Source: Baffinella frigidus
Taxonomy: Eukaryota; Cryptophyceae; Cryptomonadales; Baffinellaceae
DNA length: 25,239 nt
Direction: 5' to 3'
Assembly: GCA_026770585.1 (NCBI GenBank)
Contig: MU646334.1
Span: 197,405-222,643 of the forward strand
Below, piece by piece: positions 1-25,239 of this stretch. Positions within the stretch are counted from its first letter, which is position 1. The number at the start of each line of letters is the position of its first letter. The translations under genes and the position numbers were made by a program. The notes under the pieces are model-generated. The model was not told where the DNA came from and searched no databases. It was given only the letters and a program-made list of their open reading frames with translations.

Positions 1-35
1 TCCCTCCCTCCCTAGACTGGTGGACTGCTGGAAAC

Positions 36-60
36 GGAACCTGGAAGTCGAAGACGTTGA
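36..60 (-). repeat. Downstream copy of INTS11 exon 11 end
   Basis: It repeats NVFDFQ and the CAG|GTTCC donor of exon 11 (147-225); the flanking intron (CACACAAAAAGG, GCTGGAAACGG) is duplicated as well. Confidence 0.7.
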
Positions 61-146
61 GACATAGACAGAGCTAGGGAGTGCTGGAAACGGTTGTGGT
101 CCATCCCACACAAAAAGGGTTTAGCCCATCTCACACAAAAAGGAAC

Positions 147-3100
147 CTGGAAATCGAAGACATTGCGCTTGACGAAGGTGTCCTTGATCTTCTGGTTCGT
201 CCACGAGATGAACATCTTGTAGTACCTGCCGTGGTCACGCGGCATGATGACTTGGCATGATGCCGTAACGTGATCCAGGCGCCTGGGAGAAATGGTCACG
301 TGCCATGGTCCACGTTGGACCGTTCTCAGAAGGTTGCGCTCTGGCGGAAATGATGAAATTTATTGGACACCCATAACATCTGAAATTGTCACGTGCCGCG
401 GTCAGGTGGCATGCTGACGTGGCAACAGCGATGCACGAGACACACAGAACCCCGCTAACTTGGTATGGGGGTCTCGAGGCACACCAGTTGGCCTTCTCGG
501 TGAGGCCTGCCGAGAAGTAAAAGGTCCCGCTGGTCCTAGCCTGCTCGCATTACCACACAATGGGATACGAAGGGATGTTCTGGCCAAAATTGAGCGATTT
601 CCGGTCAAAATAGGTCGCGGGGCTCTCTCACCAGTTGGCTTTCTCGGTGAGGCCTGCCGAGAAGTAGATCGGCACGTCGAGGCCTGTGCGCTCCCAGAAC
701 GCGTCGAGGAGCAGGCAGAGCTCCTGCGCGCGCCCCAGCGCGAACACCGGGATCAACACCTGCCGTCCAAGCCTACGCGTCAGTTCTTTTGATCGTAGGT
801 ATTTTGTGTGAGATGGCTTCTTCTGAGGAGGAGGACTTTAAGCTCACTCCTAGTGGCGTGCGCGGCGCGCTCGGCTGGATTCCGCTCTTTAACACACAGG
901 ATATCGCTGTTTTTATGGGTGTCCGATACACTTCAACAGCGCTTATGTGCGCACGCCCCAACGCGAATACCGGGATCAGCACCTGCCGCACCGATTAGAG
1001 TTGAAGAAACTGAGTATAGTGTAGGGGTCCGGGTTGAGTTTTGAGGGGTCAGGTGTTTTTAGTTTGAGTTTCAGGTTTAATTTTCAGGTTTTGACGTTCA
1101 GGGTTTCGGATTTAGGGGCTGGGATTTCGAGTTTTGAGTTTAGAGTTTAGGGCTCGGGTCGTGGTTCAGGGGTCAAAGATGGGGGTCAGGGTTCCTGCCG
1201 CCGGCGCGCACTCGGAGACCTGGTTCTGGAGAAAGAGGGAGAGCGAGCGAGTGTGTGTGTCTGTGTAAGATAGATAGAGATAGATAGATAGATAGAGAGA
1301 GCGAGAGAGAGGGAGGGAGAGGGAGGAAGTGAGAGGGAGGGATGGAGAGAGAGAGAGAACCAACGAGAGAGAGAGAGAGAGATAGAGAGATAGAGAGCGA
1401 TAAAGAGAGATAGTGAGAGTGAGAGAGACACAGAGAGTGAGAGTAAGAGGGACAGCGAGAGAGAGACGCGGACCTTGCCGCCGGCGCGCACACACTCGGA
1501 CACCTGGTTCAGGAGGTCGCGCTCGCGCCACCTCTTCGACTCCCGGATCGTCGTCGCGTACCTATGTCATAATTTTGGGTTAGCTCTAAGAATTTCAATT
1601 TTTTTTTTCGGGTTCAGGGGTTGGGGTTCATTTTTGGGTGGTTTAGGGTGAGGGAAACGCTTTTTGGGTGGTTTAGGGTGAGGGAAACGAATCGTGGATC
1701 GTTGTCGCGTACCTGGGCGACCGTTTCGGTTTAGCGCTAAGAATTTGAGGGATTAGAATTGAAGGGTTTAGGGTGTAGAATTTCAGGGGTTGCGGTTTGG
1801 GGATTGGGGTTTGGAGTTCGGGGGTTTCGGGTGTAGGGTAAGGAAAACGCTTCGACTCCCCTATCGTCGTCGCGTACCTAGGTGACCGTTTCGGGTTAGC
1901 ATTGCGCGTTTCGGGTTCCACACAGCGGGCTTCGAAGGAAATCAGAAATCTGGTCGAACGGTCGGCTAATGAGATGTCTGCGCACCGAGCAATTCTTAAT
2001 CAGTATCACGAAAATCTATGTACCGATCTGCGAAGCCCACTGCGTGTCTGGTTTCGGGTTTCGAATTTCGGGTTTCGGGTTTCTGGTTTCGGGTTTCGGG
2101 TTTCGGGTTTCGGGTTTCGGGTTTGGTGTTTCTTGTTTCGTGTTCCGGGTTTCGTGTTCCGGGTTTCGTGTTCCGGGTTCGGGTGCAGGGATAGGGAAAC
2201 GTACGTGCTCTCCGTGATCATGAGGTCCGGGCGCAACCTGTCGCACCGCGCCGAGCCTGCACGTGTGTTCAAGGTTTAGGTTTTAGGGTTCAGGTTCACG
2301 AAACACGAACCCCGAACCCCGGACCGGAAGCGCCGAGCCTGCACGTGCGCCAACGCCAGGTCACACGGTGTGCATAACCAGCAACATCTTCACCACCTGC
2401 TCGTGGCCGAACCCCAGAGGCACCCGTGGCTGTCAGCCGACCCTGCAAGGTCAGAAGTGGGGCGCCCCCGTCAGTACCACGCTGGACTGGACCCCGAAGG
2501 GTTTGTACCAGGGGATGAATGTATAATAGATGTAAACAGTATATGACTACATATAGGCGCAGCCTGTCGCACAGCGCCGAGCCTGCACCCCAGATCAAAC
2601 GCAGGAATGTCAGACCGCACACCCAGCAACACCATCACCACCTGCTCGCGATCCCCCCCACGCACCCGTGGCTGTCCATTGTCGACCGTTGCTGATAAAT
2701 CTTTCTGTGTGACGTTTGGCGATCGGCATCCAACTGGGCGACGCGTGTGGAAAAAGTGGCATCGATGTCAGGGGTAGGGCACCGAGGTGGCGGTCGGGTG
2801 TCATGTTGTAGTCGCCCGTGTAGAGGAAGGACTGCTGCCCGACGCGAACGTAGAACATCGCCGCACCCAACACCTGTTTAGGCTGCAGTGTTTAGGGTGT
2901 AGGGTTTGGGTTGAGGGTTGAGGGAGCATTCGGGAAATATTTCCGCAACGAGGATCTAATCCCGCCGAGAGTTCAACTTCAATACTCGCCCGGATGAGAT
3001 CTGGTGATACAGATTCCGTGTTCCTCACTTCTGACGAAATCTAGATTATTATAACCACGGCACCAGGCTTATAACCTTTCCAGACAAATACACGAGGTGG

Positions 3101-6100
3101 GGTATGTTGCGGGTACAGACGGGTCCGGCGTAGTAGGGGCGGATCTCAAAGCCCGGCCCAACTCCAACCGTATCCAGGTAAGGTTCAGTGTCTAGGCTTC
3201 TCCAGCTCTGCCTGAGTTTATTCTGGCCCGCCCTTAAAACTATTTAAGAGCAGACATCCGACACAAAAAAGCGAATATAAAGCCTTCGGGCAAGACGGAA
3301 TTCCACCTCAGGCAGCGCTAGGGTTGAGGTAAGGGACAGACGTGTCCGGCGTAGTAGGGGCGGATCTCAAAGTCCGGCGCGATGACAACCGTCTCTTCGA
3401 GGACGCACGGCGTCACCTTCATCATGCACTCTTTCACCTGTTCAGGCGGTGAGGTCAAAAAAGGCCAAAAACGCATACCAGCCCCCTGTTCTCCGAAGCC
3501 GTGCAAGGGTTTAGCCCTGGACCCCTTTCTTAAGTCATTGCTCGTACACAACCAGGATCTGGAAGTCCAGCGCGATGACAACCGTCTCTTCCAAGACGCA
3601 CGGCGTCACCTTCAACATGCACTATTTCACCTGATTAGGCGGTGAAAGGTCAAAAAACATACCAGCCCCGTGTTTTCCGAAGCCAGATTTTCGTCTCCAC
3701 CATTAACACCCTGATAAATATTCGTCTGCAACACCTCCACCCGGAGTAATCTTAGAGCGAATGGGTTTAGCCCTGGTCCCCTTTCTAAGGTCATTTCTCG
3801 TACCCAGCCAAAAACGTACTCGGGCACGTATGGGAACTAACCCGTATTCGAGGCGCTTCCAGACTTTAGGGGTTTGCAGGTGTGAAGGGGGCACACAGCG
3901 GTTAGCATATCCGTAGAAATAACCCCCACGTCCCTGCTGATTGCACACCGCAGGGTCCTATGGATTATCCACTTCTGGTTTATTCACAAATGAATCCCTG
4001 TGTAGTCCCCTGTGAGGCACCACGTAGGGGACTACGCAGGTGGATTTTCTGGCCAACTCCTAAACACAGTCGGTTACGATATCCGCAGGACCAGCCTATG
4101 CCCCTACGGCGTTTCCTACCGTAGGGTCTTGACGCTTATCCACTTGTGGGTTATCCACAAAATCTCTGTGTAGCCCCCAGTGAGGAGCGCACGATTCTCG
4201 CTCAGAATCCGACAAAAAATCCCTTGCAGCCCGCTGTGTGGGGAGGGAGCGCACTTCCAAAACCCTTTCTGCGTAACGGGGTTTAGAGGTGTGGAGGGAG
4301 CGTTCGATCCCCGCCCCCATCCCCCGTCCCTGCTCCGTCTGGGAACTAACCCGAATCCGAGGGCGTTTTCCGCCTAGAGGGTTTTAGAGGTGTGGGGCAC
4401 CTGCTGGGACGTGAAAAAGTCCTTCTCCTCACCCCTAAGCGATGAGACCTAGGACCCTACGGTAGGCAAACCGTAGGGACATAGGAGTGGCCTTACGGAT
4501 GATGTAACGGAAACTCGGGCATTTCCTGCCCAAACAACCCTTCGTAGCCCGCTGTGTGGGGAGCCACTCCAGGCCCTTGGGTGGGGTATTCCGGAGCCGT
4601 TTGCTCGTTCTTGGAGCCGTTTTTGTGCTAAAAATCGACGTTTGAGAAAGTTTTCCCATCAAAAATGACTTTTGAATACCCCCCCCTCCAGCCCTGCATG
4701 GGGAGCGCACCTGCTGGGACGTGAAAAAGTCCTTCTCCTCGATCCCGCGGCGCTCCACCGAGATCTTCCGATAGTCCTCTAACAGAATCGGCATCACCTG
4801 CACAGGTTGTGGGCCTCGCCGTGAGCTCTGGTGAGTGTACCTGAGGGAGAGTTTGGTCGGTCTGGCACTGTATATACAATCATCGCAAGGATCCGGGGTT
4901 GGTACCCGACTGGGCAGTCCTTTACCCGATTGTCATGAGTTGACTTAAAGACTGGGCAGTTACGAATCGGCATCACCTGTATGATGCCGATTCGTAACGG
5001 GTTAGTTTGCATGTAGGCTCCAGGTGAAAGAGTGCACGATGAAGGTTATGGACCTCACCGTGAGCTCTGGTGCGACGGTAGGGAAACCACGCACCATAAA
5101 CCCTGAACTTACTCCAGGCGCTACGGTACGGGTGGATCATACCACCAGCCCTCACATAAAGCTTTAGGCTTTAGGGCTTAGGGTTCATGGTTTCCCTACC
5201 GTCGGGCCTCGAGGTGAGCTCTGGTAAGTGTATGGTCCGACGGCGTAGGTTCAATAAAATCTCTTCTCCCATCTGGAGCTACGGTACGGACGGAACCCTT
5301 CAACCCTAAACCTAAACCCTTGACGTGAACCATGTGCTACGGTATGGGTGGATCATACCCACAGCATTTATCCGGGGAAACCTGTTTTTCTTTCATTTGA
5401 TGGCAATGAAAATTACTACACAATTCGTTCTTACTAGTAATATTAAAACATTCGTGTAGTAATTTTCAGTGGAATCAAATGAAAGAAAAATAGGTTTCCC
5501 CGGATAAGCATAGCACACAAGCAAACTCGCCAGCTGCGACGAGTATCCCGACGAGTTATTCATCCCGAGGCGCGCTGAGAGAACCACACGAAGATTAACA
5601 GAACCAGATATGTTGTGCACCAGAACGGTACCAAACCCGCGCAGGAAACCGTCCAATTTTTCGACACGAGGAAGCTATGCAATATTTCGATCATCGGGGG
5701 CTCTGCGCTTGGATGAGGGAGTGACCGCTTTGGTCGGGTGTGTCGCGTAGATGGGACCATCGTACCCCAGGACCTGGTGGGGTGCATCGTCCATTAATCA
5801 TACAGCACGCCCGAGAGAGAGCGGGAGAGAGAGGGAGGGCTAGGGAGGGAGAGAGAGAGATAGGCCTTTTTTTAATACCATGCCAGAGAGGGAGCGAGAG
5901 AGAGGCCTCTTTAAACACCTTGCTCCTAATCCCTAAACCCTACGCCCGAGGAGTTAACGCACCTGCGTGAATTAGGGCAGGTATACAACGATGGATAGAA
6001 AGCAAGCGAGAGGGAGAGAGGGATAGCGAGAGAGAGAGAGAGAGATGGAGAACGAAAAGGAGATAGCGGAGATAGAGAGGGATACTCCTTTCTCGAAGCT

Positions 6101-7175
6101 GACCCAGTGTCTGCACACTAGAGGGCGAGGGAGGTGTTCAGGCACTTAGCCCGAGCCCTCTCTGGACACCTTGACGTGATGGTCGGACGTCATATATGTT
6201 CAATAAAAATCTCTTTTCTGTTCACGCACCTGCGTGAAGTAGAAGAGAGGGCTAGAGAGAGGGAGAGTGGGATATCGAGCGAGCGAGCGAGCGAGAGAGA
6301 GAGAGAAAGCGAGAGAGCGAGAGCGAGAGATAGTGAGCCGGATAGAGATGCGAGAGAGAGAGAGGGATGTATCATTATGGAGAGAGAGAGGTGTTCGCGC
6401 CAACTCCGTCAACTTTGGAGCGGGAAAGAACCCGCACACATCCCATCGGTCAGCCCACAGAGACTGACATATCCCTAGCGAGAGAGGAGAGGTACGCACC
6501 TGCGTGAAGTACGGCAGCGAGCCGCAGTGGTCCAGGTGGAAGTGCGAGATGATCACCAGATCGATCAGCCCCGTGAAGTTGCCCTCCGATGAAATGTACC
6601 GGAAGTCGGGGAAGCGCCGGTGGTCGTTGTACCTGCGGGGCGCCGCCACGTGTTGGTTCTCGCGTGGGGAGGCGAGTGCTGTGGAGCAGGGATGGGGGAT
6701 GGGGGCGGGGAGCGCGGACCCTGGGTGCATGCCGCAGTCGAGCATGATGTTCTTGCCGCCCATCGTGATCTGCGTGGGAGCGGACGCATTCACTTTCACC
6801 AGACCCGTGGGGGCTTGGGGGGACACAGAGGAGGCTTTTCCTATCTGTTTCTCGAAGCTGCCCCAACCTCTACTCTCTTCTGCGCTGTGGGTTGCGGATC
6901 GCGGGAAGCTGCAGCGCAGGTTCATTTTCCGAGTGAGGAAGTTCGAGCCAGCGTGTCTTCTCCACTGCACACAGCAAGCCACGCCGTTGCTGCAGCAAGG
7001 GCCGACAAGCTGGGGCACCACATGGGCAGAACCAGGATTCCCTCTCCGGTGGAAGATCCGTGCGGTGGGGGATTGCGAGCGATCCCGGGAGAGGGGGGGT
7101 GGGGGGGCTCACAAGGATGCAGCTCTTTCCCACGTCCTGCCCTGCACCGAGCGGCACCACCTTGATCTGCGACAT
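147..7175 (-). CDS. INTS11: Integrator complex subunit 11 (INTS11/CPSF73-like RNA endonuclease), N-terminal 305 codons
   Basis: INTS11 is the metallo-beta-lactamase/beta-CASP endonuclease of the nuclear Integrator complex, which cleaves snRNA and other nascent transcripts. Exons (transcript order): 7113-7175, 6720-6769, 6500-6632, 5726-5773, 4711-4797, 3342-3437, 2783-2873, 2205-2256, 1474-1561, 632-759, 147-225. Every junction is GT..AG and phases agree, giving 305 codons without a stop. The start is the ATG of [19 protein letters not shown], the family N-terminus. Visible motifs: LDCGMH (about residues 31-36), HFHLDH (68-73), AGH with His159, YTGDYN with Asp180, and ITEST with Glu205. These are the metal ligands and beta-CASP motif A, at the spacing seen in CPSF73/INTS11. 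Exon 10 has [11 protein letters not shown]; exon 11 has SWTNQKI. The family is about 600 residues, so roughly half the gene (beta-CASP motifs B/C and the C-terminal domain) lies left of the window. Animal-type motifs such as SWTNQKI favour INTS11 over CPSF73. Identity is secure; exon edges are inferred. Confidence 0.95.
482..519 (-). repeat. Downstream copy of INTS11 exon 10 3' end
   Basis: It repeats the [10 protein letters not shown] end of exon 10 (632-759), including the TG|GTG donor join, then diverges. Confidence 0.8.
949..988 (-). repeat. Upstream copy of INTS11 exon 10 5' end
   Basis: It repeats the GGCAG|GTG acceptor and [11 protein letters not shown] codons of exon 10, then departs where QELCLLL should follow. 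The matching 3' fragment lies on the other side of the exon. Confidence 0.8.
1195..1230 (-). repeat. Downstream copy of INTS11 exon 9 3' end
   Basis: It repeats the NQVSEC..RAGG codons of exon 9 (1474-1561). A GA tract (about 1236-1465, CT on the sense strand) separates it from the exon. Confidence 0.75.
1236..1465. repeat. GA/CT microsatellite in INTS11 intron 9
   Basis: GAGA and GATA tracts on the plus strand (CT on the INTS11 sense strand). Several long open frames here are only low-complexity artefacts. Confidence 0.9.
1575..2190 (-). repeat. Degenerate telomere-like repeats in INTS11 intron 8
   Basis: GGGTTTAGGG, GGGTTTCGGG and GTGTTCCGGGTTTC variants on the plus strand surround the exon 9 echoes; the run at 2048-2180 is almost pure GGGTTTC. 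A further degenerate run is at 1020-1160 and another at 2880-2930. Confidence 0.8.
1686..1893 (-). repeat. Two upstream copies of INTS11 exon 9 5' end
   Basis: Copies at about 1686-1722 and 1848-1893 carry an acceptor (CAG or TAG) followed by GTACGCGACGA, i.e. YATTI, as in exon 9. The second extends to the GAGTCGAAG region. Telomere-like repeats lie around both. Confidence 0.75.
2325..2690 (-). repeat. Tandem copies of the INTS11 exon 8 acceptor region
   Basis: Two repeats of about 245 bp period (2325-2440 and 2572-2690) each carry GCGCCGAGCCTGCA on the plus strand, the acceptor and first codons of exon 8 (2205-2256). They share ACCACCTGCTCG and CACCCGTGGCTGTC. They extend the intron between exons 7 and 8. 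Confidence 0.65.
3112..3160 (-). repeat. Downstream copy of INTS11 exon 6 3' end
   Basis: It repeats FEIRPYYAG of exon 6 (3342-3437) and the GTCTGT donor, with the catalytic His codon changed (CAC to CCC), so it is not a usable exon end. Confidence 0.8.
3561..3634 (-). repeat. Upstream copy of INTS11 exon 6 5' part
   Basis: Over 70 bp repeat the CAG|GTG acceptor and the [20 protein letters not shown] part of exon 6 with few changes, then diverge before PDFEIRP. Exon 6 is thus flanked by an upstream head copy and a downstream tail copy. Confidence 0.85.
4396..4432 (-). repeat. Downstream copy of INTS11 exon 5 3' end
   Basis: It repeats the [10 protein letters not shown] codons and CAG|GTGC donor of exon 5 (4711-4797). 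A left-truncated CACACAGCGG-family element joins it directly at about 4433. A shorter copy of the exon's 5' end (GTGATGCCGATTC with CAG) is at 4964-4979. Confidence 0.75.
4433..4559. mobile_element. Left-truncated CACACAGCGG-family MITE
   Basis: It carries ACCCCTAAGCGATGAGACC, CCCTACGGTAGGC, GTAACGGAAACTCGGGC and the right end CCCTTCGTAGCCCGCTGTGTGG, but no left end. Further isolated ends are at 1919-1940, 3895-3905, 4215-4240, 10399-10423 and 11253-11272. Confidence 0.75.
5368..5507. mobile_element. 140 bp MITE (TTATCCGGGG family), copy 1, in INTS11 intron 4
   Basis: The ends are TTATCCGGGGAAACCT and its inverse. The inverted repeat extends about 55 bp inward (TTTTTCTTTCATTTGAT, AAAATTACTACAC) around a short AT-rich loop. 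GCAT flanks both sides (5364-5367, 5508-5511), a 4 bp target duplication. No coding capacity, so it is non-autonomous. Confidence 0.9.
5959..6242 (-). repeat. Two downstream copies of INTS11 exon 3 end in GA-rich intron
   Basis: CGCACCTGCGTGAA at 5959 and 6222 repeats the TTCACGCAG|GTGCG donor join of exon 3 (6500-6632). GA tracts (CT on the sense strand) at 5810-5920, 6000-6080 and 6240-6400 fill the rest. Confidence 0.65.
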
Positions 7176-7541: not shown

Positions 7542-8573
7542 ATGTCCAACCACGAGCTCGCGCTGCGGGTGCTGCGCGAGGCAGCGCACATGTACGACGC
7601 GACGCGCGGCAGCGGGAATGATGACGCAGAGGGCAACGACCTCCAAACGCTTGCGGCGCGCCTGACTAAGCAGGTTTGGGGATTCGCGGATTCAGGGCGC
7701 AGGCGGGGATCTCTGAGCGACCCGCAGGCACCACGTTGCACCGTGCCCCGCTCACGCCCCCCCTTCCACCCCTCCAGGATGACTTCGCCAAGGAGCTTCC
7801 TGCCGACATGCTCCGGGAATGCTCGGCTGTGCGGCCTCCCACGGTAAACACCCTACACCCCACACCCTACACCCTAAACCCTAAACCCTACACCCTACAC
7901 CCTACACCCTAAACCCTCAACCCTAAACCCTCAACCCTCAACCCTAAACCCTAAACTCTAAACCCAGGACCGGGTCACATGCTTGCTCGTCGGCAACCAC
8001 TCAGCGGGGAAGAGCAGTTTCGTGAACTGGTACGTGGGGGAACATATCCAGAGCACGAGCGTCGCGATGGAGACGGCGGGGTTCACGGTCTCGTCCCCAC
8101 ACATGCCCTCTACCCCAAGCGCAGCACAGACACCAGAGTAGTTCACGTGAATCTTGACGAGTACGATCAAGCGTGGAACGTCGCGTTTTGTAAGTTTGAA
8201 AGGAGGTCCCGCCAGGCAGCCACAGGAAGCCACATCCAGCCAGCCACCCACTGGCAGACAGCCAGACAGCCAGACAGCCAGCAACCCACACACTCGCATC
8301 TCCCTCAGCTGCATCGCATTCTTCCAACCATGCCACGTCTCCTGCACTGCCCCGCTACAGCAACCGAGCACGCTGCGCTCACGCCCGAAGCGCGAGATCC
8401 TGATTTGGACCCTCCACCCTTCACCCTACATCCTGAAACCTCAAAATCAACCCCTCAAAACCTGAACCCCACACTCTGAACCCCAAACCCTGAACCCTAA
8501 ACCCCGGGGCGGCAGGTTGTGCGGAAGGGCAAGAAGCGCAGACGCCAGCGTGGTTTACATGTCTTGACGAGGA

Positions 8574-8618
<45 letters not shown>

Positions 8619-8879
8619 TCAGCAAGCCACAGCCATCCAGCCAGCCTGAACCATAATTCTTCCTGATCCCAAAACACCGCATCTCAACACCGAACACCAC
8701 GGCAGGTTGTGCGGAAGGGCAAGAAGCGGGTGGAGTGGCGGGGCAAGCAGACTGCTAGCTCGTTCCCGCACCTCGAGCATGTGGTGAGGGTTTACCTGAA
8801 CCCTACACCCTGAACCCTGAACCCTGAACCCTGAACCCTGATCCCTAGACCCTCAACACTCAACCCTGACCCCTAACCC

Positions 8880-8925
<46 letters not shown>

Positions 8926-11900
8926 ACCCTGAACCCTAAACCCCAAACCCTAAACCCCAAACCCTAAACCCTCAACCCTGAACCCCAAACCCTAAAACCC
9001 AAACCCTAAACCCTAAACCCCAAACCCTAAACCCTAAACCCCAAACCCCAAACCCCAAACCCCAAACCCCAAATCCCAAACCCTAAACCAGGTGAGCTTG
9101 CCGGGGGTGGTGGAACACATGGAGACGCAGTTCTCGACAAGTACGGCGCGCGACTTCCCCATGGTCTGCCCGCCCACGCACGATGCTTGACTGACATGGA
9201 CGGTTTTGCTCAAGGAGAACGACTCGCCCGTGGTTTTTTTTCGGGGAGGGGAACTCGCATGTAGGCTTCGTGCCAGGAAAACCCCTGAGGTGTCTGTTTG
9301 TCCTGCTTCTACGCAGACTTAGTGGGAGGGGGTTGGCAGCATGCACACCGTGCACTCTTTGGTTCTGTCTCTCTGTCTCTATCTCTGTCTCGTGTCTCTG
9401 GCTCCGGCTCTTTTTCTCTCTCTCTCTCTCTGACAAGTGGATTCGGACGCGACGCAGGTCGAGTTCATCGACACGCCTGGCCTCGTCGACGGCACTGTCA
9501 AGGTCCTTATCCGGGGAAACCTATTTTTCTTTCAATTGATGGCGCAGTGAAAATTACTACACAATTCGTTTTTACTGGTAATTTTAAAGGATTCGTGTGG
9601 TAATTTGTGTTGGAATCAAATGAAAGAAAAACGGGTTTCCCCGGATAAGTCCGTCTGGAATCTAATGTAGAAACTGTTTTAATTTAAAACACCCAATTTC
9701 AATGAAATATTTTACACGTTTGCTTTAATGTTTCTAGCAAGGGCTCGTCGACGGCACTGTCAAGGTCTGGAATCACTCCCAACCATTCAACCGCTCAGCA
9801 ATTCTGCCCTGCCTCTGATTGCTTCTGCTTGCGCGAGCGTTGCTCTGCTGCTTGCTTCCGCTCCCGAACTTGCATGCAGACTAAAGCTCAGGGAACGCGC
9901 GCAGTATCCGTGAAACCGGAGTGTGGGAGTATATATGTGAAACCGGAGTGTGGGAGCAGTATATGAGTAGTATATGTGAAACCGGAATGTGCAGATGAGC
10001 AGTATCCGTTCGACATTGATGAAGCGATCGAGAAGCTGGCAGAACACGCGTCCATCATCCTCGTCTTCCTAGATGCGCATTGTGGTAGTATATGAACAGT
10101 GTACGTGAAACCGGCGTGTGGAAATATGCGTGAACCCGGAGTGTGGGAGCAGTACATGAGTGGTATATGGTAAACGCGAAACCTATATGAACATTATATG
10201 GTAAATGCGGAACCGTGGGCGAGCAGTATCCGTTCGACATTGATGAGGCGATCGAGAGGCTCGCGGAGCACGCGTCGATCGTCCTCGTCTTCATGGACCC
10301 CATCGGCAAGGTCTGAGCGAACACTCGAAACTCCAACACAGTGGGCTTCGCCAGATCGGTCCATTTATTTTCGTCGTGGTGGCTCAGCCACCAAGAATCC
10401 CTTCGTAGCCCCGCTGTGTGGCTGGTTCAGAAGATGTGATTGTGGTGAGGATTACGGTTTTGGCGCGAGCGAAGACTTGATTGGAACCTCCAACCCTCCG
10501 TCACGCCTGCCCGTAAATCTGCTCGCAATGTCAAGTTTATTGGATCCCCATACCATCACGAGATTCGAGCATTACCGAGCGGAATCCAGCCGTATAAACC
10601 GAATCTTCTGCCCCGGTGAAGACCACTATTCTGAAGTTGACATGCTGGGTGTGTGGTACAAACTCGTCAACTTTGAAGCGGGGAAGCACCTGGGCCCAGC
10701 AAACCGAGACAGAGCTATGAACCGACTCCTCCGCCCCGGTGCAGGCGCTGGTGGCCCGGACCATGAAAGTCGTCGAGAAACTCTCCACACGGTACGTTTC
10801 GATCTTGATCCCTATTTTGTTGGTTGCACTTCCCACCGCCGAGAAACTCGTTTCTGCACCTTTTCTGCACCCGTCATTTTCGCATGTCTTTCGCAACGCC
10901 TGGTTATCGGCCCGAATCGTCAAGCAGCTGCCGCACCACCTTGATCACATGCAACCCTACACCATAAACCCTGAACCCTTCAGGCACCTGGCTAAGATGC
11001 ACTTTGTCCTGGCCAAGTTCGACACGGTCGCCAACCAGAACGATCGCACCAACGTCATCTCCCAGGTATTCGCCTGCATGGCCACACTAATAGGGTAACT
11101 GACTAAAAATGGGGTAGTTGGGCCTACGGGATTGCCTAGGACCCCCTACTGTAGGCCAAAATCCCAAAACTTTTTGGCCATAGGAGCCCTACGGCCTACG
11201 GTAGGCAATTCCGTAGGCCTAACTACCCCATTGTTGGTCCGTTAGTCTATGAACACAGCGGGCTGCGAAGGAATTTTCCTTTTTTGAGCCGCCGTAAATC
11301 GGTTAGGATATCCGTAGGAACAACTCTATGCCCCTACGGATGGCCTACCGTAGGGTCCTATGGACCATCGTCATCTCGCAGGTACTTGCCTGCGAACCAC
11401 ACGTTGGGCAACTGGGCTCAACCCCCAAAAGGGAAAGTGAGGTTCTCAGGTTGTTCACCATCCACACAGCGGAGTACGGAGGGATCCGTGAATAACCCAT
11501 ACGATAAGACATACGACCCTACGGCAGGCAACCCGTAGGGAGATTGGGGGGTTCCTACGGATAAGGTAACGGAAAATGGCTTACATTTGGCCATTTTTCC
11601 CCTGCGTAGCCCGCTGTGTGGTAAGCTTTTGCCATAAAACCTAGAGTGCTGACCTGAGACGGACGCCGAGGGGTGGGTTGTATAGCCTGTAAATGTATTG
11701 TATATCATATACATGTATTGTATAACCAGTAACTGTTTGTACATATATTGTATATCTCCTGGGTTCTTGAACGCAGTCCCTGACGCACAGGGAGGTTGTC
11801 TGGTGTACAACCCGCGACTAAATTCAAATCAATTTAAATCAAACTGAATTCAAACCAAAAATCAAATCAAATTAAACTTGGTGGTGCGCGTGCAGGTGGC

Positions 11901-12594: not shown

Positions 12595-12632
<38 letters not shown>

Positions 12633-17771: not shown

Positions 17772-17871
17772 GGCTCCCCTCTCGATGCGCTCTTCCAAGT
17801 CGAATGACGGGAGACGCGGAGCAAGAGTATGCCTCGCCTCTTTCATTCGAACCTCTCCACGTCGCTCAAGC

Positions 17872-17911
17872 TCGTCACGGCCGACGCTTTCTCGACGACG
17901 GCTTCGGCTAA
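17872..17911 (+). repeat. Downstream copy of the GTPase terminal exon end, including stop
   Basis: It repeats CGTCACGGCCGACGCT and GACGACGGCTTCGGCTAA of the last exon (17704-17771), with extra bases (TTCTC for CTC) that shift the frame. It lies just 3' of the gene, in the presumed 3' UTR or beyond. On the opposite strand it makes a false open frame. Confidence 0.75.
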
Positions 17912-18617
17912 GAGAGAGAGGGGAGAGACATCGAGAGGGATGGAGGTGAGGGGGGGGGGAGTTGAATGTTCTATAATGTTCTAGAACATTCGATGCTGAC
18001 GCCGAGAAGAAGGGTTAGGGGTTGAGACCTCGCGCACGCGGCGCAGCGAGTCCAGCCGCTCGCGGTACGACTCGTCCGAGAGAGAGGGGGTTGGGTCTTG
18101 GGGGGATGCGCCTCCTTATGAGTGGGGTACCCCCGTAGGGCACACCAGTTAGTTACCAAAATTAGTCACCAAATCTGTTTCGAAAGGTGGAGAAGGGTCT
18201 ATGGGCGTGCTGCAGGAAAACAGCACGAGGCTTTGTCTCATCAGCATACGGCGCTAGAGAGGTTTCTGGAAGCGCCGCACAATAAACTACATCCCAAGAG
18301 ATGCACCGGTGTGGGAAATAATGCCGTTTATTTTGATCACATGGCACGACCGCAGAAATGGAAGCACTGTTGGTATCAATGCAGGGCTCTCTCTCTCACT
18401 CTCTCACACACACTCTCTCTCTCTCGCTCTCTCTTCGCGGAAAGCTCATGTGGGGGATCTCTCTGTCACAGAGACGATGAGTCGGTGGTGCCATCTGTGT
18501 ACACACGGTTTATTATTCACAGTTTGGGCGAGGACTTGGGTGCCTCGCCATAAGACCCCCCCCCCCCATAATGGTCCTGGGAGGTGGAAATCGTCGCATC
18601 ATCGAGGTAACCCCGTA

Positions 18618-18732
18618 CAGGGGTACCTCGCTCATAAGAAACTGCCCCCCCCCTAGGACCACCATAGGGCCCTAGATAGACCTACTCTAGGAACCTACGG
18701 GGGCGCTGTTTCTTGTGAGCGAGCTACCCCTG
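18618..18732. mobile_element. 115 bp MITE with CAGGGGTA ends and TA target duplication
   Basis: Inverted ends of about 27 bp begin CAGGGGTACCTCGCTCA and CAGGGGTAGCTCGCTCA. TA flanks each side (18616-18617, 18733-18734). A paralogous unoccupied site (CTGTAGATGCCAG, about 18806-18818) lies nearby because the element entered one of two tandem copies of the local sequence. Confidence 0.85.
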
Positions 18733-18754
18733 TAGATGCCAGTTTGGCATCTAC

Positions 18755-21700
18755 CCCCCGATAATGGTCCCGGGAGGTGGAGATCGTCGCATCATCGAGG
18801 AATCCCTGTAGATGCCAGCTTGATTCCCGAGGCACATTGCCCATCTCAAGTCTCTCGCGCCGGTCTTGCACTTACTCCACCTACCTTGCTCCCCTCAGGG
18901 GCCTGTCTTGCCTGTGGCTACATACGCCTGCGCCTGGGTGTTCTGCCCGCGGTTCTGCCCGCGGTTCGGACACAATAAGCCCGATCCTGCATGCTCGGGG
19001 GTTTCTGCTACATGACCCTGGTTCTTTTCCGAACTTTGCAAAGTTCGCCTATGCGGCCTATCCACTTAGCAGCGGCCGAGTTCCTTTTCCCCCAGATACC
19101 CGGGGGAAATGCGGTTAGAATCCAATGCACATGGATAAGATTCCAGTACAAATCCTTTAGATGGACTGTATCCCTGAAGCCTCCAGCGGCTTCTAAGTGG
19201 TACAGCCTCGTTCCCGCCTCGCCCTATAACCCGTAAGTGGCCAGTAGGCGCATACGCCCTACCGTAAGGAGCTAGGACCTGCCTAGGACCTCTTGGGGGT
19301 CGATTTTGACCCCCCTCGCCACTTGAGAGATGTGTTCCTTAGTAGTGTACCGATGGAGAGTAGGACCAGAGAGATCTCGGCCCGTTGCGTCCGATGTCTT
19401 CCATCGCTAGCCCGATCAGTATTCCCTGCGTTCGGGTTTCAGGTTTAGGGTTTTCAGGGTTCTGGATTTTCAGCTCTCTCTCTCTCACACACACACTCAC
19501 GCTTTGTCTCTGTCTCTGTCTCTGTCTGTCTGTCTGTCTCTCTCTATATCGCTCTCTCTCTCTCTATGTAGTGTAGGACCAGAGAGATCTCGGCCCGTTG
19601 CGTCCGATGCCTTTCATCGCGAGCCCGATCAATATCCCCTGGATTTGGGGTTTGTGGTTCAGGGCTTGGGGTTTTCAGCAAGAGAGCGATCCCTTTTCAA
19701 AAATGGTCAACCTAAGAAGGTCAACATAAGAAAAATTTGACGAGTGTCCTTTTCAAACGAAAACTTCGTGCTCCACCGTGCAGAGGGGGGAGGGGTGAAC
19801 CTGCAGTACCGACGAGATGTGGCGGCGTGCGCCCACGAGCGGAATGCGGTCGCGCGCCACGAGGTCAATGACAGTGATACTGTCGTAAGATGTGGGAGGG
19901 GGGTGAGGACCTGGAGGACCGACGAGATGTGGCGGGCGTGCGCCACGAGTGGGATAAGCGTCGTGCACAGCGCATACGCCCTAACTCGCCCTAGGCAGGC
20001 CATAGGGCCCTACCGTAGGGTGTATGATCCTACTGGCCACTTATGAGCCTACTGGCTACTTAAGGGATACCTGGAGGACGGACGAGATGTGGCGGTCATG
20101 CGCCACGAGGGGGATGAGCGTCGTGCACAGCGCGTACGCCCGGAACTGCAAATGGTACCTGTTTGGATCACTCAACTTGAGGCTCGAGAGTAATGAAGAG
20201 GAGATAATCGGCCGCGTGCAGGGGTTACTCGAAATCAAGAAAAAACACAGCGCGTACGTCCGGAACTGCAGATGGTATCTGCGTGTATTTTGGGTTCAAA
20301 TGACGGTGACGAAGATGGGCATGCGTTAGTCAGCAAACGGGGTTTGTTGGTGGGTGTTCGCGGACGCAACCGGGGACGCGATCAGTCAGCAAAATCAGCA
20401 AACCGGCTTCATGCGTCAGCAAACCGGCTTCGTGCGTCAGCACCGCCGGTTTCGTGCGCCAGGAGTGGGAGGGAACCCCAACGCATCGCCAACATCTGAG
20501 TATAACGCGGTGGGCTGTGACCTTGCCGAGATGGCAAGCGAGACGCCCGCGACCGACACGCCAACCTGCCACGCACGCACAAGAATATGAGGTTAGGGTG
20601 TGGGGTTTGGGGTTTGGGGTTCGGAGATTTTTGTTTTGGGTGGTTGGGGGTTGGGGGTTGGGGGTTGGGGTGTTTGGGGTTTAGGTTGTTTTTTAGCATG
20701 TTGCGACGGTAAAAAGGGTTGAGTTTTTTTTTAGCATATTGCAACGATATCACGATAGGCTGGGGGGGGGCGAGACCAGCGCAAGGCCCACGAAAACCCG
20801 CTCCAGCTCCCCCGCTTTGTACGTCAACCGCACCTGCCAGAGCACGAGCAGTGGTGATGCGCAGTACCCAAAACTTCTTTTTCTTCTTCTTTCTTACCCT
20901 CAGAAAGGACCTCGATGATATTCGAGAGGCCCCTACAGCCTTTTGAAAACGCTGGCATGTGACGATGCTCACACGAGGCCGCACCTAGAAGAGAACGTGC
21001 GTTCATGTCGGATCAAAATCAAAAGCCCCTCCGCCTGGTACGTCAGCTGCACCTGCAAGATCACGAGTCGTCAGTGCCCAATACACCCAATTCGCTACCA
21101 GAGAGAGTGTCCCCCACGTAACACGTGCGTCAACCCCACCTAGAAGAAAACGTGTGTTCGTTACAGATCGAAACCAACAGTGTATTCCCGTCAGTCAATG
21201 TTTGACAGATGACGCGTGGTCAGACTCTGTGACAATGCTCAGGGCCAGAACACCAACTTAAACGTTCACAGGCGGCTGTATCAGAGCTTTCCCACGTACA
21301 CAACAAAAACCCTGCCGGTCAAGGCTACCATCCCGGTTCAAAACGTGAGCGGCTGAGGCAAGGGAGGGTGCAGCACCGATAGCGCAAAAAAAGCCCCTTG
21401 GTGTCGAGGCTAGATGGCTTCTGGTGTCGAGGCAAGCGAGAGCCTCTCCATACGGTGGACTACGATGGTTTCCACTACGCTATGTAGCGTATGTCGTGAC
21501 CAAATTTGCACTAGAAAATCCTCGATGTTAATTGCCCCTGGGCAAGTTGACGTTTGATGAAAGGTCCGTAGTCCACCGTGTAGGGGCGCTCACCTGGTGT
21601 ACCAGCACAGCACCGATAGCGCACAACAGCAGCCCCCCATGTGTTGAGGCGAGAGGGCTTCTGGTGTCGAGGGTAGCGAGAGCCTCTGAGCGGTTCGAAC

Positions 21701-24700
21701 CGAGCGCGGATGAGGCAAGGAATGACTTCAGGTCTCGAGGCTAGAAGACATCTGGCGTAGATGATAGAGAGGGGCCGTAAGGTTTGAGGGTTTAGGGTTC
21801 AGGGTTTGGGGTTTAGGGTTTAGGGCTTAGGGTTTTGGGTTTAGGGCGTAGGGTTTAGGGTTTAGGGTTTGGGGTTGAGGGTTGAGGGTTTAGGGTTCAA
21901 GGTTTAGCGTGCAGGGTTCAGGGCTTAGGGTTTGGGGTTTAGGGTTTAGCACCTGATGCACCAACACAGCACCGATCGCGCAAAACAGCAGCACCGTCAG
22001 CACAGTCTCCACCCCAGCCGTCTCACCCCCCCCTGCGTCCGCCCCTGGCCCCACCCCTCTGCCACGCCGGGTGGTTAGTGGGAATCTCACAACGCAACGT
22101 TTCGTGGTACTAAATGGTACGTAGCTACGTGGCGAGACGCAGCCCCGCCTCTCTGGTGGAGGGTGGTGGCGTGTCAGCCGGCAGGTGAATCAGCCGCATG
22201 GAGGTCTAGCGATGTCTCAGTCTGTTTGGTCTCGCCAAGTTGGTGAGACCCCACTGGTGGGCGGGGGGGGGGCGTCACCTGGCGGGTGAGGGACGAGCTG
22301 ACGGGAGACCTGGCGCTGTCTCAGTCTAGCTGGTCTCACCAAGCTGGTGGGTTCTCTACCGAGGAAAGACATATGGAAGGGGTGGGGGGGTACTTTGGGG
22401 GTTGAAGTGCCAAGGCGCGAACGAGCGCGGCTGAGAGGAGCATCGGCGCCGCAAATCCCAACTGCCATCAAATGATCAAGTTTATTGGATACGAAAACAA
22501 TCGGGCAATCCAGGGTGTTACAGAGCGGAATCTAGCCGTGCGCGACCGCGCAAGCCAACTGCCATGATAGACGCTGGGGGTCCTGTAGGCCAAGGCTACA
22601 GGCCAAGGCGCGCTACGGCTTCTCCTACTCCACACTGTGTTCTCAATTACCCCAAAATCAAGAAAGCCACCGGAGAACAAAGAAGACTAATCCGCACATG
22701 GGTTCAAAAGCCAAGAGCGGAAAGTTGTTCTGGGGGCGGGGACGCACGAGGTTCCGTGTGACCAGCTCCCGGGAGGTGTCTCAGGACGGCGTTGGCAGAT
22801 AAGGGATACATAGAAAGACTCGGTTGAGAAGATGGTTCCGGAGGGAAAGGACGAACGAGGTTCCGTGTGACCAACTCCCGCAGCGTGCGGGATGCAGACA
22901 GGCATGTGTGCTCACGGTGGACCATGTGCGCCATCGCCAGGCTCGCCAGTAATAAAGAAGAAAGCATAGGAACTATGGTTCCGGAGGGTTCTGGAGAGGG
23001 CAGGGAGGGGGCGGGGACGCACGAGGTTTCGTGTGACTAGCTCCCGCGGCGTGAGTGCCGGGGCGGGGAGCCGCGTCGTCCAGTGCCTCTGCAACCATCC
23101 CACGCATTAGTCACGCGGCATCAACAAACATAATCACTGGCATCGTGTTGCATGAATCTCCCGCGGCGTGAGCGCCGGGGCGGGGAGCCGCGTCGTCCAG
23201 TGCTGCTGATTAGGGTTTCGGGTTCAGGTTCTCGGGTTTAGGGTTGAGGGTTGAGAACCACCCCGAGCATTTTGCGCGCCGTCCATTGCCGCTGAAACAT
23301 GGATGCATCTTATACCATACCGTCAGCTCGCGGTTGTCTGGACTTGTCTCGAGGCTCCATGCCTTCGCTTGACGAGTCTATGGGTCTGGCAAACACGGCG
23401 AATTCCTCACTGTTGAGTCCAGAAACAGCCCCTGCAACCATCCCGTCCGTTGGCCACGCGTGAAGACTCAACCGAATCAACATCCCGCGGTGTGAGTGCC
23501 GGGGCGGAGAGGCGCGCAGTCCACAGCAAATCCCTCTAAATATAAGTCCAGAAACATCGAGAAGCAGCCGCTACAACCATCCCGTGCATCAGTCACGCGC
23601 CATAGTCACTGGAAGCATATTACACGCGGTACACGCTCCACGGTTCAGTTAACAGTCACGGGTGCATGCGTAGACACGGAACCTTGCGGACACTAAGTGC
23701 AATTACCGTCGTGATAACCAGAACAAAGGTTCGCTACCCTATCCTACACTGCTAGCCGCAAAATTTTGAAGCAGCCAATCCCCCACACGCCGTCACCCAG
23801 CTTGGGTACCATGTTACTACAATGTTCCACGGGGGTTGCCTAATGCAAAATCTTCCCGCTAGCAGTGTACTATCGGAGGTCACACAGCGGACTTCAAAGA
23901 GATTTCGAATAACCCCTAAGCGATAAGACCAAGGACCCTACGGTAGGCTATCCGTAGGGACATAGGGGGGGGTCCTACGGATAAGGTAACAGAAACTCGG
24001 GCTCTCAGAGCCAGAAAATCCCTTCGCAGCCCGCTGTGTGGGGAGGGCCTGCACCTGGCTAGTTGGGGAAGGGATCTGCCATCGCAAGCGGGGCCAGTAT
24101 ACGCCCTTCCCCGGTCCAGTTGACGGTCGATGGTTCATCCGTGGACACGGAACTTTGCCGACACTAAGTGCAATGATCGTGATAACAAAACAAAGCTTCC
24201 CTTTTCCTGAAGTGGCCTGTAAGCTCATACGCCCTACCGTAGGGCCCTGGGACCTGCCTAGGACCTCTTGGTAGTCAAATTTGACTGCCTGGTCACTTAA
24301 GGGATACTAACTAACGGGAGAGGGGCTGCACCTGGCTGGTTGGGAAAGGGATCTGCCATCGCCAGCGGGGCCCTCGTAGTACCTGGTTTCGGGTTTCGGG
24401 GTTAGGGTTTGGGGTTTGGGGTTTGGGGTTTGGAGTTTGGGGTTTGGGGTTTGGGGTTTGGGGTTCAGGGTTTAGGGTTTGGGGTTTTGGGTGCAGGGTT
24501 CAGTGTTGAGTGTTGAGTGATTAGTGTTTAGGGTTCAGTACTTAGTGTTTGGGGTTTAGAGTTTATGGTGTGCGTAGTACCCAGGCGGGTCCGAGTAAGT
24601 TGGCCCCCACCACTTAGGGTTTAGATGTTGGGGTTTAGGGTTTAGGGTTTAGGGTTTAGGGTTTGGGGTTTGGGGTTTGGGGTCTAGGGTCTAAGGTCTA

Positions 24701-25111
24701 GGGTCTAAGGTCTAGGGTCTGAAGTTTAGGGTTAAGGACAGTACCTAGGCAGGCCCGAGCAAGTAGACGTCGATCACTCAGGTTTCAGGGTGCAGGGTTG
24801 AAGGTTTAGGTGTTCGGGTTTAAGGTTGAGGGTTGAGAGTTTAGGGTGGTGTGTTTGCAGAGTGGAGTACCCAGGCAGGCCCGAGCAGGTAGACGCCGAT
24901 CACGAACAAAAGATCTAGGATTTGGGGTGTAGGGTGCAGGGTGTAGGGTGTAGGGTGTAGGGTGTAGGGTGTAGGGTGTAGGGTGTAGGGAGTAGGGTGT
25001 AGGGTGTAGGGTGTAGGGTTCAGGGTTTTGGGTTGTACCCAGGCAGGCCCGAGCAGGTAAACGCCGATCACGAACACCACTGCGAAGAGGACTGAGCCGT
25101 CCGGGAACGCC
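18755..25111 (-). CDS. Multi-pass membrane protein, C-terminal part, probably LCCL-domain membrane-protein type; 5' end off window
   Basis: Exons in transcript order: 25039-25111, 24332-24382, 23019-23088, 21953-22032, 20777-20833, 20522-20565, 20071-20158, 19580-19638 (twin at 19367-19425), tentatively 18755-18805. Phases fit at each listed join; a missing exon between 24332 and 23088 is possible. Seen in order: a membrane segment (VLFAVVFVIGVYLLGPAW); an R/W-rich stretch; LTPRELVTRNL; a membrane segment (TVLLFCAIGAVLVHQ); a short RLTYKAGELER linker; another membrane segment (VGLALVGVSVAGVSLAIS); YHLQFRAYAL; a hydrophobic stretch; and VLQGILIGLAMKGIGR. This order resembles the C-terminal module of fungal/oomycete/algal LCCL-domain membrane proteins (LTPHDL, TM, R..G linker, TM, HHY..LLPGT, LLYQGLLxGLFxNGxARWG). 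The LCCL domain itself would lie right of the window, so the family call is inference from memory of the pattern. The 3' end is unresolved: a final coding exon may lie between 17970 and 18750. Confidence 0.55.
19235..19324. mobile_element. 90 bp AAGTGGCC element
   Basis: It begins AAGTGGCCAGTAGGC, contains CATACGCCCTACCGTA and GACCTGCCTAGGACCTCTTG, and ends in an inverted GCCACTT. A sister copy is at 24210-24298 and a partial one at about 19976-20069, each followed by TTAAGGGATAC or similar. Confidence 0.7.
19367..19425 (-). other. Second intact copy of a 59 bp exon (possible mutually exclusive exon)
   Basis: This copy and 19580-19638 have the same length, the same frame, a CAG acceptor (CCAG / GCAG), a GTCCTA donor, and translations that differ mainly at AMKGIG versus AMEDIG. 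Both read GILIGLAM..IGRNGPRSL. They are about 213 bp apart, separated by a CT repeat and short telomere-like sequence. Including both would add 118 bp and break the frame, so only one can be used per transcript. It could be a recent dead duplicate, but nothing in it is broken. Confidence 0.6.
19475..19566. repeat. CT microsatellite between the twin exons of gene 3
   Basis: CTCT/GTCT/CACA on the plus strand, which is GA on the gene 3 sense strand; the same holds at 18385-18440. This differs from genes 1 and 2, where such tracts are pyrimidine on the sense strand. Confidence 0.85.
19803..19983 (-). repeat. Two downstream copies of the YHLQFRAYAL exon 3' part
   Basis: The plus-strand blocks at 19924-19983 and 19803-19862 share GACGAGATGTGGCG with the exon at 20071-20158. 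They still read IPLV..RHISSVLQ with CAG|GT joins; the second has two overlapping copies of the LVAR/LVGAR part. An upstream head copy lies at 20246-20285. Confidence 0.75.
21026..21148 (-). repeat. Two upstream copies of the VRLTYKAGELER exon start
   Basis: GTACGTCAGCTGCACCTGCA (21041-21060) and GTGCGTCAACCCCACCTAG (21125 on) repeat the acceptor and first codons of the exon at 20777-20833 with increasing decay. Confidence 0.65.
21371..21634 (-). repeat. Downstream copies of the TVLLFCAIGAVLVHQ exon end
   Basis: The block at 21590-21634 reads LLLCAIGAVLVHQ with a CAG|GTGAGC donor; a shorter block at 21371-21400 keeps CAIGA. The source exon is 21953-22032. A 134 bp MITE (21449-21582) sits between them. 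Confidence 0.75.
21449..21582. mobile_element. About 134 bp MITE shared by genes 2 and 3, copy in gene 3
   Basis: TACGGTGGACTACG at the left inverts CGTAGTCCACCGTGT at the right; the interior matches 14018-14152. Same orientation on the plus strand, hence opposite orientation relative to host gene. Confidence 0.8.
21779..21950 (-). repeat. Telomere-like GGGTTTA array in gene 3
   Basis: It directly follows, in sense orientation, the donor at 21952. The C-rich strand is the sense strand of the gene. Smaller arrays are at 20590-20690 and 23212-23252. Confidence 0.9.
22100..22735. other. Gene 3 intron segment without recognised exon
   Basis: It contains two blocks with TCTCAGTCT..TGGTCTCACCAAG (22214-22250, 22316-22345), kin to the TTTGGTCTCACC stretch in the GTPase introns, a homopurine GGGGTGGGGGG run near 22380, and no open stretch that looks coding. 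Confidence 0.5.
22740..22886 (-). repeat. Two downstream copies of the LTPRELVTRNL exon end
   Basis: Blocks at 22740-22776 and 22858-22886 repeat RELVTRNLVR with GTCC donors, as in the exon 23019-23088. The second continues upstream into an open stretch (LASLAMAHMVHREH) that might itself be coding in a different splice form. Confidence 0.65.
23160..23515 (-). repeat. Upstream copies of the RHWTTRLPAPALTPREL exon
   Basis: A nearly full copy at 23160-23206 reads HWTTRLPAPALTPRE but lacks a GT where the exon ends. Weaker copies lie at about 23264-23300 (QWTARK) and 23484-23515. The intron piece CAACCATCCC..CACGC before the acceptor is repeated at 23091, 23434 and 23574. Confidence 0.7.
23881..24040. 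mobile_element. 160 bp MITE, CACACAGCGG family
   Basis: It starts CACACAGCGG and ends CCGCTGTGTG. The interior AATAACCCCTAAGCGATAAG, CCTACGGTAGGC and GGATAAGGTAACAGAAACTC matches the copy at 11462 and the truncated one at 4433. It lies in gene 3, beside an exon echo. Confidence 0.85.
24046..24096 (-). repeat. Downstream copy of the RWQIPFPTSQ exon
   Basis: It reads PRLRWQIPSPTSQ with a CAG|GTGCAG donor, against RGPRWRWQIPFPTSQ in 24332-24382. It directly abuts the CACACAGCGG element ending at 24040. Confidence 0.75.
24210..24298. mobile_element. 89 bp AAGTGGCC element, sister copy
   Basis: AAGTGGCCTGTAAGC at the left and GGTCACTT at the right; shares CATACGCCCTACCGTAGGG and GACCTGCCTAGGACCTCTTG with 19235-19324. 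Confidence 0.7.
24385..25032 (-). repeat. Series of telomere-like arrays between copies of the VYLLGPAW exon end
   Basis: Arrays at 24385-24575, 24615-24735, 24780-24845 and 24918-25032 alternate with exon echoes. Variants are locally uniform (GGGTTTG, GGTCTAG, GGGTGTA), showing recent local tandem expansion. Confidence 0.9.
24582..24903 (-). repeat. Three downstream copies of the VYLLGPAW exon end
   Basis: Copies at 24859-24903, 24741-24779 and 24582-24611 repeat the end of 25039-25111 (ACCCAGGCAGGCCCGAGCAG on the plus strand). The nearest keeps FVIGVYLLGPAW|GTAC intact; the second has a stop in place of Trp; the third keeps LLGPAW. They are spaced by telomere-like arrays. Confidence 0.8.
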
Positions 25112-25129
25112 CTGGCAAGGCTTCAAGCT

Positions 25130-25157
25130 TTAGATTTTAAGGTTGAGGGTTGAGGGC

Positions 25158-25238
<81 letters not shown>

Positions 25239-25239
25239 G
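25130..25239 (-). repeat. Homogeneous GGGTTGA array at the window edge
   Basis: At least 14 units of GGGTTGA run to the last base and probably continue beyond. It lies upstream, in gene 3 sense, of the exon at 25039-25111. Confidence 0.9.

Follow-up and report, generated by a model that had tools for sequence, protein, structure and literature searches.

Truncated copies of exon ends in the introns of neighbouring genes of the cryptophyte Baffinella frigidus

Among the literature matches listed, the closest single event to what is reported here is found in the potato RdRp gene, in which a local duplication spans an acceptor together with the start of an exon, splice signals included (PMC4974935). 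It is one tandem event in one gene, through which a new intron was made and the messenger RNA (mRNA) was altered. Local copies of the same kind occur in a stretch of 25,239 nucleotides (nt) of Baffinella frigidus (GenBank assembly GCA_026770585.1, contig MU646334.1, positions 197,405 to 222,643 of the forward strand), hereafter called the window and always meant at its full length, which holds INTS11, a dynamin-type GTPase gene and a third, provisional gene (gene 3). In Baffinella, unlike in potato, the copies are truncated, they are often separated from their exons by filler, and they affect over half of the exons that were studied.

Other described systems resemble this locus in part. The short duplications and insertions near breaks reported in rice, for which two-strand nicks and end joining are proposed, are similar to those seen here, but the text describing them makes no tie to exon ends (PMC5730883; PMC7407515). 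The introner elements of Amoebophrya share with our case a protist host and direct repeats at the intron edges; as presented in the source excerpt, they form repeated families with inverted repeats and boundary direct repeats of 3–5 nt (PMC7789003), whereas in Baffinella every direct repeat belongs to a single exon. Intron gain of the Rogers type also leaves exon-derived sequence within introns, but the order of heads and tails predicted in the available portion of the source is the reverse of the one found here (PMC3443670). No report of the exon-end copy pattern was seen among the matches listed, judged by their titles and abstract openings.

The evidence base is one window with three genes, one of them provisional, and the counts given below concern the two verified genes, INTS11 and the GTPase gene, unless gene 3 is named. 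Each of the 29 verified exons was compared with every intron and gene flank of these two genes on both strands (exon-only query, score of at least 36), the own flanks of an exon being introns or gene flanks. Matches were obtained in 18 of the 58 pairs of an exon and its own flank (9 upstream, 9 downstream), against 0 of 841 non-adjacent pairs in sense and 1 of 899 pairs in antisense. Repeated masking brought the set to 23 copies from 14 of the 29 exons: the 12 upstream copies are all heads, which begin 0–9 nt from the head of the exon and omit at least 18 nt of its tail, and the 11 downstream copies are all tails, which finish 0–2 nt from the tail of the exon and omit at least 18 nt of its head. 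A more sensitive query centred on the junctions gave 42 matches in own introns where about 1 was expected (24 in 1,304 control pairs); 27 of these span the junction, 1 is exon-only and 14 are intron-only. The low-complexity filter of this query removed the tail copy of INTS11 exon 5, which is present when unfiltered. With both queries pooled, copies are found for 17 of the 29 exons, or 18 if INTS11 exon 11 (2 nt of exon only) is counted, and they lie in 15 of the 27 introns, or in 12 at the strict threshold. The exon-end copy observation is genuine in this window.

A previous sequence-only reading of the window had put the number of copied exons at no fewer than 20 of about 38, and 24 of 38 were found (17 of the 29 verified exons and 7 of the 9 provisional exons of gene 3). 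All the examples that it named were recovered, namely INTS11 exons 6 and 10, GTPase exons 11, 13, 14 and 15, and the gene 3 exons at 25039 and 20071, together with one given as 23019, the exon end of which is at 23023. It had also described the polarity as invariable, which is true of 23 of 23 copies in the verified genes and of 10 of 11 in gene 3; the eleventh is nearly the whole of exon 9 (73 of 75 nt), so that its polarity is uninformative. The argument offered for the polarity holds, since only arrangements with the exon intact survive: polarity is largely a survivorship effect. It also argues against a scattering of exon pieces, which could leave harmless head copies downstream.

In INTS11 (minus strand), exon 3 has two tail copies, at 6224..6241 (score 36) and 5957..5980 (score 38), while exon 5 has a short head copy of 16 nt at 4964..4979 (score 32) and a tail copy at 4401..4430 that is identical over 30 nt (100%). 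Exon 6 is flanked by a head copy with intron flank at 3555..3630 (91%) and a tail copy at 3123..3174 (87%), and exon 8 is preceded by a head copy at 2556..2582 (93%). Head copies of exon 9 lie at 1850..1877 (93%) and, more weakly, at about 1688–1746, and its tail copy at 1196..1231 (85%); the head and tail copies of exon 10 are at 948..982 (89%) and 485..519 (97%). The weak match to the exon 11 acceptor, at 391..424, consists of 32 nt of intron and 2 nt of exon (score 38).

In the GTPase gene (plus strand), single copies are found for the head of exon 4 at 8516..8538 (100% over 23 nt), the tail of exon 6 at 9741..9764 (96%), the head of exon 7 at 10003..10068 (89%), the tail of exon 9 at 11364..11414 (with intron flank, score 41), the head of exon 12 at 13286..13320 (89%, with 38 nt of intron flank), the tail of exon 13 at 14515..14559 (77%) and the head of exon 16 at 16622..16647 (score 42). 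Arrays follow the tail of exon 11, with copies 1 to 3 at 12629..12696 (91%), 12807..12858 (87%) and 12953..13023 (79%), and precede the heads of exon 14, at 15140..15213 (85%) and 15303..15361 (90%), and of exon 15, at 15678..15744 (82%), 15827..15896 (84%) and 15954..16018 (83%). The tail of exon 15 is copied with intron flank at 16390..16463 (86%), and a 44-nt copy of the terminal part of the last exon, stop codon included, lies in the 3' flank at 17868..17911 (93%).

In gene 3 (minus strand), tail copies are found for exon 1 at 24871..24908 (97%) and 24747..24777 (90%), exon 2 at 24055..24095 (93%), exon 4 at 22857..22887 (87%) and 22748..22771 (92%), exon 5 at 21594..21636 (86%) and exon 8 at 19911..19981 (92%) and 19801..19855 (82%), and head copies for exon 4 at 23158..23203 (98%), exon 6 at 21024..21067 (82%) and exon 8 at 20246..20277 (94%). 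The nearly whole copy of exon 9 is at 19566..19638 (90%), and a further match to exon 5, at 21371..21389, ends 14 nt before the junction (score 33).

Taken over the 23 copies, the differences between exon and copy at codon positions 1, 2 and 3 number 30, 23 and 69, close to the ratio of 25:25:50 (1:1:2) expected if the copy is free to drift while the exon accepts silent changes alone, and there are 10 indels in 1,147 aligned nt, of which 9 break the frame. The copies look like neutral debris. At the splice junctions, AG or GT is retained in 20 of 22 copies (12 of 12 heads, 8 of 10 tails), which is not clearly above expectation at this divergence, and the database protein of the GTPase gene contains none of the copies. 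Alternative or mutually exclusive exons would be expected to have an open frame and the full length of the exon, which the copies, truncated (gene 3 exon 9 excepted) and with most of their indels breaking the frame, do not have. An origin from spliced mRNA or complementary DNA was rejected, since AG or GT lies at the boundary of those same 20 junction copies and several copies run on into intron sequence and not into the next exon, which points to genomic DNA as the source.

The order of the copies is constant as well: in each of the 8 introns containing both kinds (INTS11 introns 5 and 9; GTPase introns 6, 11, 13 and 15; gene 3 introns after provisional exons 5 and 8), the tail copy, which derives from the left exon, comes first and the head copy, which derives from the right exon, second. 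The same order is seen in a ninth, INTS11 intron 10, in which the head match is weak. Introns bearing copies at the strict threshold have a median length of 630 nt and the others one of 415 nt (one-sided p = 0.006), although any insert necessarily lengthens the intron in which it lies. The four shortest introns (87–192 nt) have no copies, and copies together with the spacers to their exons make up 4,632 of the 14,931 intron nt. We read this pattern as intron growth from either end, in the course of which some copies were themselves copied.

Direct repeats of sufficient complexity lying no more than 1.5 kb apart were collected over positions 1–18000, and a local repeat family was taken to touch an exon when it did so over at least 10 nt. 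On these terms 15 of the 23 families touch an exon, compared with an expectation of 16% for duplications placed at any position that does not disrupt an exon (p = 1.8e-7). Among the 8 families off exons, 3 adjoin an exon-touching unit by coordinates (2372, 3507 and 4804) and 1 is a dispersed repeat (3893). Over the whole window, 97 repeats of sufficient complexity were found, at any distance and in either orientation, 62 of them direct and within 1.5 kb, 2 at 1.5–3 kb, 11 beyond that distance and 22 inverted. Local duplications cluster at exon ends in this window. The earlier proposal that introns grow by local duplication is thus upheld as regards the local, sense, polar copies and the greater length of the introns bearing them, but needs amending in that the duplications are not evenly spread.

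If a copy arises by plain tandem duplication, the intron beside the real exon should recur beside the copy. A gapped search of the flanks gave an alignment better than the best of 60 shuffles for 16 of the 23 copies and nothing for the other 7, and the 16 alignments were then sorted by eye into 10 repeated flanks and 6 other matches. Repeated flank, sometimes displaced by later insertion, was judged present at the heads of INTS11 exons 6, 8 and 9 and of GTPase exons 7 and 12, at the second copy of GTPase exon 11, at the tails of GTPase exons 13 and 15 and, less clearly, at one head copy each of exons 14 and 15. The other matches are to a dispersed repeat (INTS11 exon 5 tail), to low-complexity sequence (GTPase exon 4 head and two exon 15 heads) or out of register (first copy of GTPase exon 11 and one GTPase exon 14 head). 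In the 13 copies without repeated flank the exon parts are still 79–100% identical, and the least decayed copies of all are among them (INTS11 exon 5 and 10 tails, GTPase exons 4 and 6; 96–100%). Spacers of 42–443 nt separate copy and exon in all 23 cases, and by the same by-eye sorting they are unrelated sequence in 13 of 23; we infer that this spacer DNA was inserted between the direct repeats.

The edges of the copies were considered as well. On the intron side, 16 of the 23 copies lose similarity no more than 9 nt from the junction, where 7.9 would be expected with junctions placed at random and double decay of the intron part (P = 0.0004). In 3 of these 16 (INTS11 exon 8 head, second copy of GTPase exon 11, GTPase exon 13 tail) the flank match resumes farther out. 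In the subset with exon identity of at least 93%, short edges number 5 of 5 against 2.9 expected, figures too small to weigh. When gene 3 is included, the intron side is no longer than 9 nt in 24 of 39 matches that reach at least 12 nt into the exon, 3 of these 24 ending at or before the junction, with 11.7 expected in the absence of decay. Among the exon-reaching matches of the junction query, short edges are 17 on the intron side vs. 1 on the exon side, or 17 vs. 4 when intron-only matches ending within 9 nt of the junction are added. Indels eroding the flank are unlikely to be the sole cause of these sharp edges given their low number in the copies, yet 3 of the 16 edges are secondary. The copy of the last GTPase exon in the 3' flank halts 1 nt beyond the stop codon, which indicates that a splice junction is not required and is a single case against a purely splicing-linked cause. 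The earlier suggestion of tandem duplication across splice junctions is sound in so far as the copies are local, sense, adjacent, polar DNA copies, some with intron flank; it does not readily account for the 13 of 23 copies judged to be without repeated flank, nor for the stop-codon copy, which involves no junction.

We consider the copies to be the survivors of small local duplications that recurred at exon ends, probably through staggered-break repair with filler, and give this a probability of roughly 0.57. A segment including an exon end would be duplicated, often with unrelated filler between the two copies, which leaves, in order, an exon end, filler, a second exon end and the old intron; the copy still joined to the body of the exon would remain functional, and the other would turn intronic and decay neutrally. 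Repeated events of this type would lengthen introns at both ends. The starting point may be staggered breaks, the overhangs of which would be filled in and end-joined with captured filler. In rice, tandem and partially tandem duplications are hypothesised to follow from asymmetrical nicks and end joining (Vaughn and Bennetzen, 2014, as referred to in the available text of PMC7407515 and PMC5730883), and in mouse cells tandem duplications are reported to be linked to breaks with protruding ends that are repaired by end joining. Several points count against the repair model. By itself it predicts no preference for exon ends, and selection, which purges events inside exons, does not obviously explain why they should be more frequent at exon ends than in the interior of introns. 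The preference itself is only mildly apparent in a circular-shift test (21 of 40 pairs vs. a mean of 14.6, with 17 of 476 shifts reaching 21), and the family test excludes repeats of low complexity and pure short tandem ones, of which some are intronic; pairs lying wholly in introns, both members of which decay, are also harder to detect. The nearest copy is the most similar one in 4 of 7 arrays but not in the other 3, and in 4 of 6 arrays at least one copy has another copy, and not the exon, as its closer match, so that copies of copies also arise. Dispersed repeats do not point to a source of the filler, as sequence with matches elsewhere in the window makes up 12% of the spacers vs. 13% of other intron DNA, a comparison made in the window only. 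About 10 of the 23 copies fit plain tandem duplication, and without the 3 edges at which the match resumes the short edges fall to 13 of 23 vs. 8.2 expected (P = 0.02), a weakening of the edge test that moved weight toward plain tandem duplication from both filler repair and the hot-spot idea discussed below. Finally, the evidence is that of a single window.

Plain tandem duplication across the splice junction, with later mutation and insertions masking the repeated flank elsewhere, is accordingly the rival to be taken most seriously, as a possible though tentative account. At the INTS11 exon 6 head the repeat blocks abut (3362–3500 and 3507–3554 vs. copies from 3555), flank matches are found at GTPase exons 7, 9, 11 (one copy), 12, 13 and 15 and at INTS11 exons 8 and 9, and at INTS11 exon 8 and GTPase exons 11 and 13 an older, longer match is broken near the junction by a later insertion or indel, so that a short edge can be secondary; but the four most similar pairs (96–100%) show no repeated flank, and with so few indels in the copies erosion alone is an improbable reason for its loss. 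It is rather doubtful that in this lineage a boundary-sensing process makes exon ends a hot spot for duplication, cutting near the junction and staggering into the exon, in which case outward growth of introns genome-wide would help to explain genome size; triggers could be, for example, exon-delimited RNA-DNA hybrids or breaks coupled to co-transcriptional splicing. Mobile elements inserted at splice sites, with the copies as long target-site duplications, have in their favour the palindromic repeats of some spacers, as at 9506–9649, which starts 4 nt after the end of GTPase exon 6, and at 4431–4563, directly before the INTS11 exon 5 copy. This explanation is improbable in view of the equal share of dispersed repeats inside and outside the spacers given above, of repeat lengths that range from 27 to 139 nt and of the lack of any sequence seen to be common to all spacers, although one element recurs in those of GTPase exons 13 and 15. 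Less probable still is the Rogers model, in which introns are gained by tandem duplication of exon segments bearing AGGT and the copies are as old as the introns: AG/GT is present at 10 of 27 donors and CAG/GT at 13 of 27 acceptors (the slash marking the junction), but the model needs the head of the next exon before the tail of the previous one, an order seen in 0 of the 8 introns holding both, and up to three copies per exon end are unlike one birth event. An assembly artefact or collapse of haplotypes is the least credible of all, even though the genome is described as of draft quality in the part of its paper that is available, since near-100% identity would be expected and is seen in only 2 of 23 copies, and the copies differ by up to 23%, contain indels that break the frame, lack one end of the exon and are polar.

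The gene models on which these counts depend are as follows. INTS11 (147..7175, minus strand) is cut by the edge of the window and runs on beyond it; its 11 exons here are 7175–7113, 6769–6720, 6632–6500, 5773–5726, 4797–4711, 3437–3342, 2873–2783, 2256–2205, 1561–1474, 759–632 and 225–147, and 305 residues (1–305) of them are alignable end to end with solved INTS11 chains. The GTPase gene (7542..17771, plus strand) has 18 exons, of which exons 1–9 are 7542–7673, 7778–7843, 7968–8087, 8706–8783, 9092–9163, 9458–9502, 10227–10310, 10745–10791 and 10984–11065, and exons 10–18 are 11896–11952, 12405–12509, 13621–13675, 14335–14405, 15404–15521, 16119–16227, 16762–16819, 17235–17280 and 17704–17771. 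By protein search and script, their translation is identical over its full length (470 amino acids, 100%) to P0001, the Baffinella frigidus hypothetical protein T484DRAFT_2799097; it has a Dynamin_N match, and the next-best relatives among the matches listed, at 44–46%, are entries of Hemiselmis, Rhodomonas, Geminigera and Guillardia theta. Gene 3 (18029..25239, minus strand) was mostly read from open frame and splice dinucleotides and is provisional; the 9 exons analysed are 25111–25039, 24382–24332, 23291–23262, 23088–23023, 22006–21953, 20833–20777, 20565–20522, 20158–20071 and 19425–19351, and a further provisional exon outside this set lies at 18076–18029. A protein search with gene 3 gave a single partial relative, P0079 (83% over 18% of the query), which has a precomputed PF03815 domain and backs only the join of exons 1 and 2. 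No relatives of the window were found in the viral contigs or prokaryote genomes searched, from which own-genome records were possibly excluded. As for splice signals in the 27 introns of the verified genes, the donors have scant consensus past GT (0.01, 0.29, 0.28 and 0.01 bits at +3 to +6), and the acceptors read CAG in 26 of 27.

Other repeats are present in the window. Three short, dispersed and partly palindromic families, which look like miniature inverted-repeat transposable elements, are found at 5368–5508 and 9506–9649 (family 1), at 3899–4182, 4431–4563, 11253–11364, 11463–11621 and 23881–24047 (family 2) and at 19234–19331, 19990–20043 and 24210–24305 (family 3). Two head-to-tail duplications, 1631–1689 (30 bp, 100%) and 17312–17373 (31 bp, 96%), are intronic and distant from exon ends, and GTPase intron 12 contains, at 13734–14308, an intron-only local repeat family of 37–90 nt in which no recognised exon end is involved. 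Introns also hold telomere-like arrays with a period of 7 (for example 7851–7955, 8801–9087, 14850–15038, 21784–21944, 24921–25032 and 25143–25233). With a loose pattern, some matches to which are possibly plain C-rich runs, 25 of 26 arrays are C-rich (CCCTAAA-like) on the sense strand of the gene, the exception being 4309–4329; with a stricter pattern, all 24 segments are (13 in the GTPase gene, 11 in gene 3 and none in INTS11). A (CCCTAAA)n run is without GT or AG, whereas the opposite strand has both, and the bias may reflect selection against the gain of splice sites.

The exon-end copies are a solid local finding, and any claim beyond one window is a conjecture. The lengthening of introns is hard to trace, because non-coding duplicates decay on both sides. 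Exons can serve as conserved rulers, against which the copies in introns can be oriented and roughly dated, so that the rate, the edges and the direction of intron growth become measurable across the genome. The Baffinella genome comprises 534.5 Mb, 6.1 times the 87.2 Mb of Guillardia theta, according to the available text of the Baffinella genome paper, in the main text of which the word intron does not appear. Should the preference for exon ends extend to the whole genome, a mutation process dependent on gene structure would be indicated, which could bear on the large genome of Baffinella.

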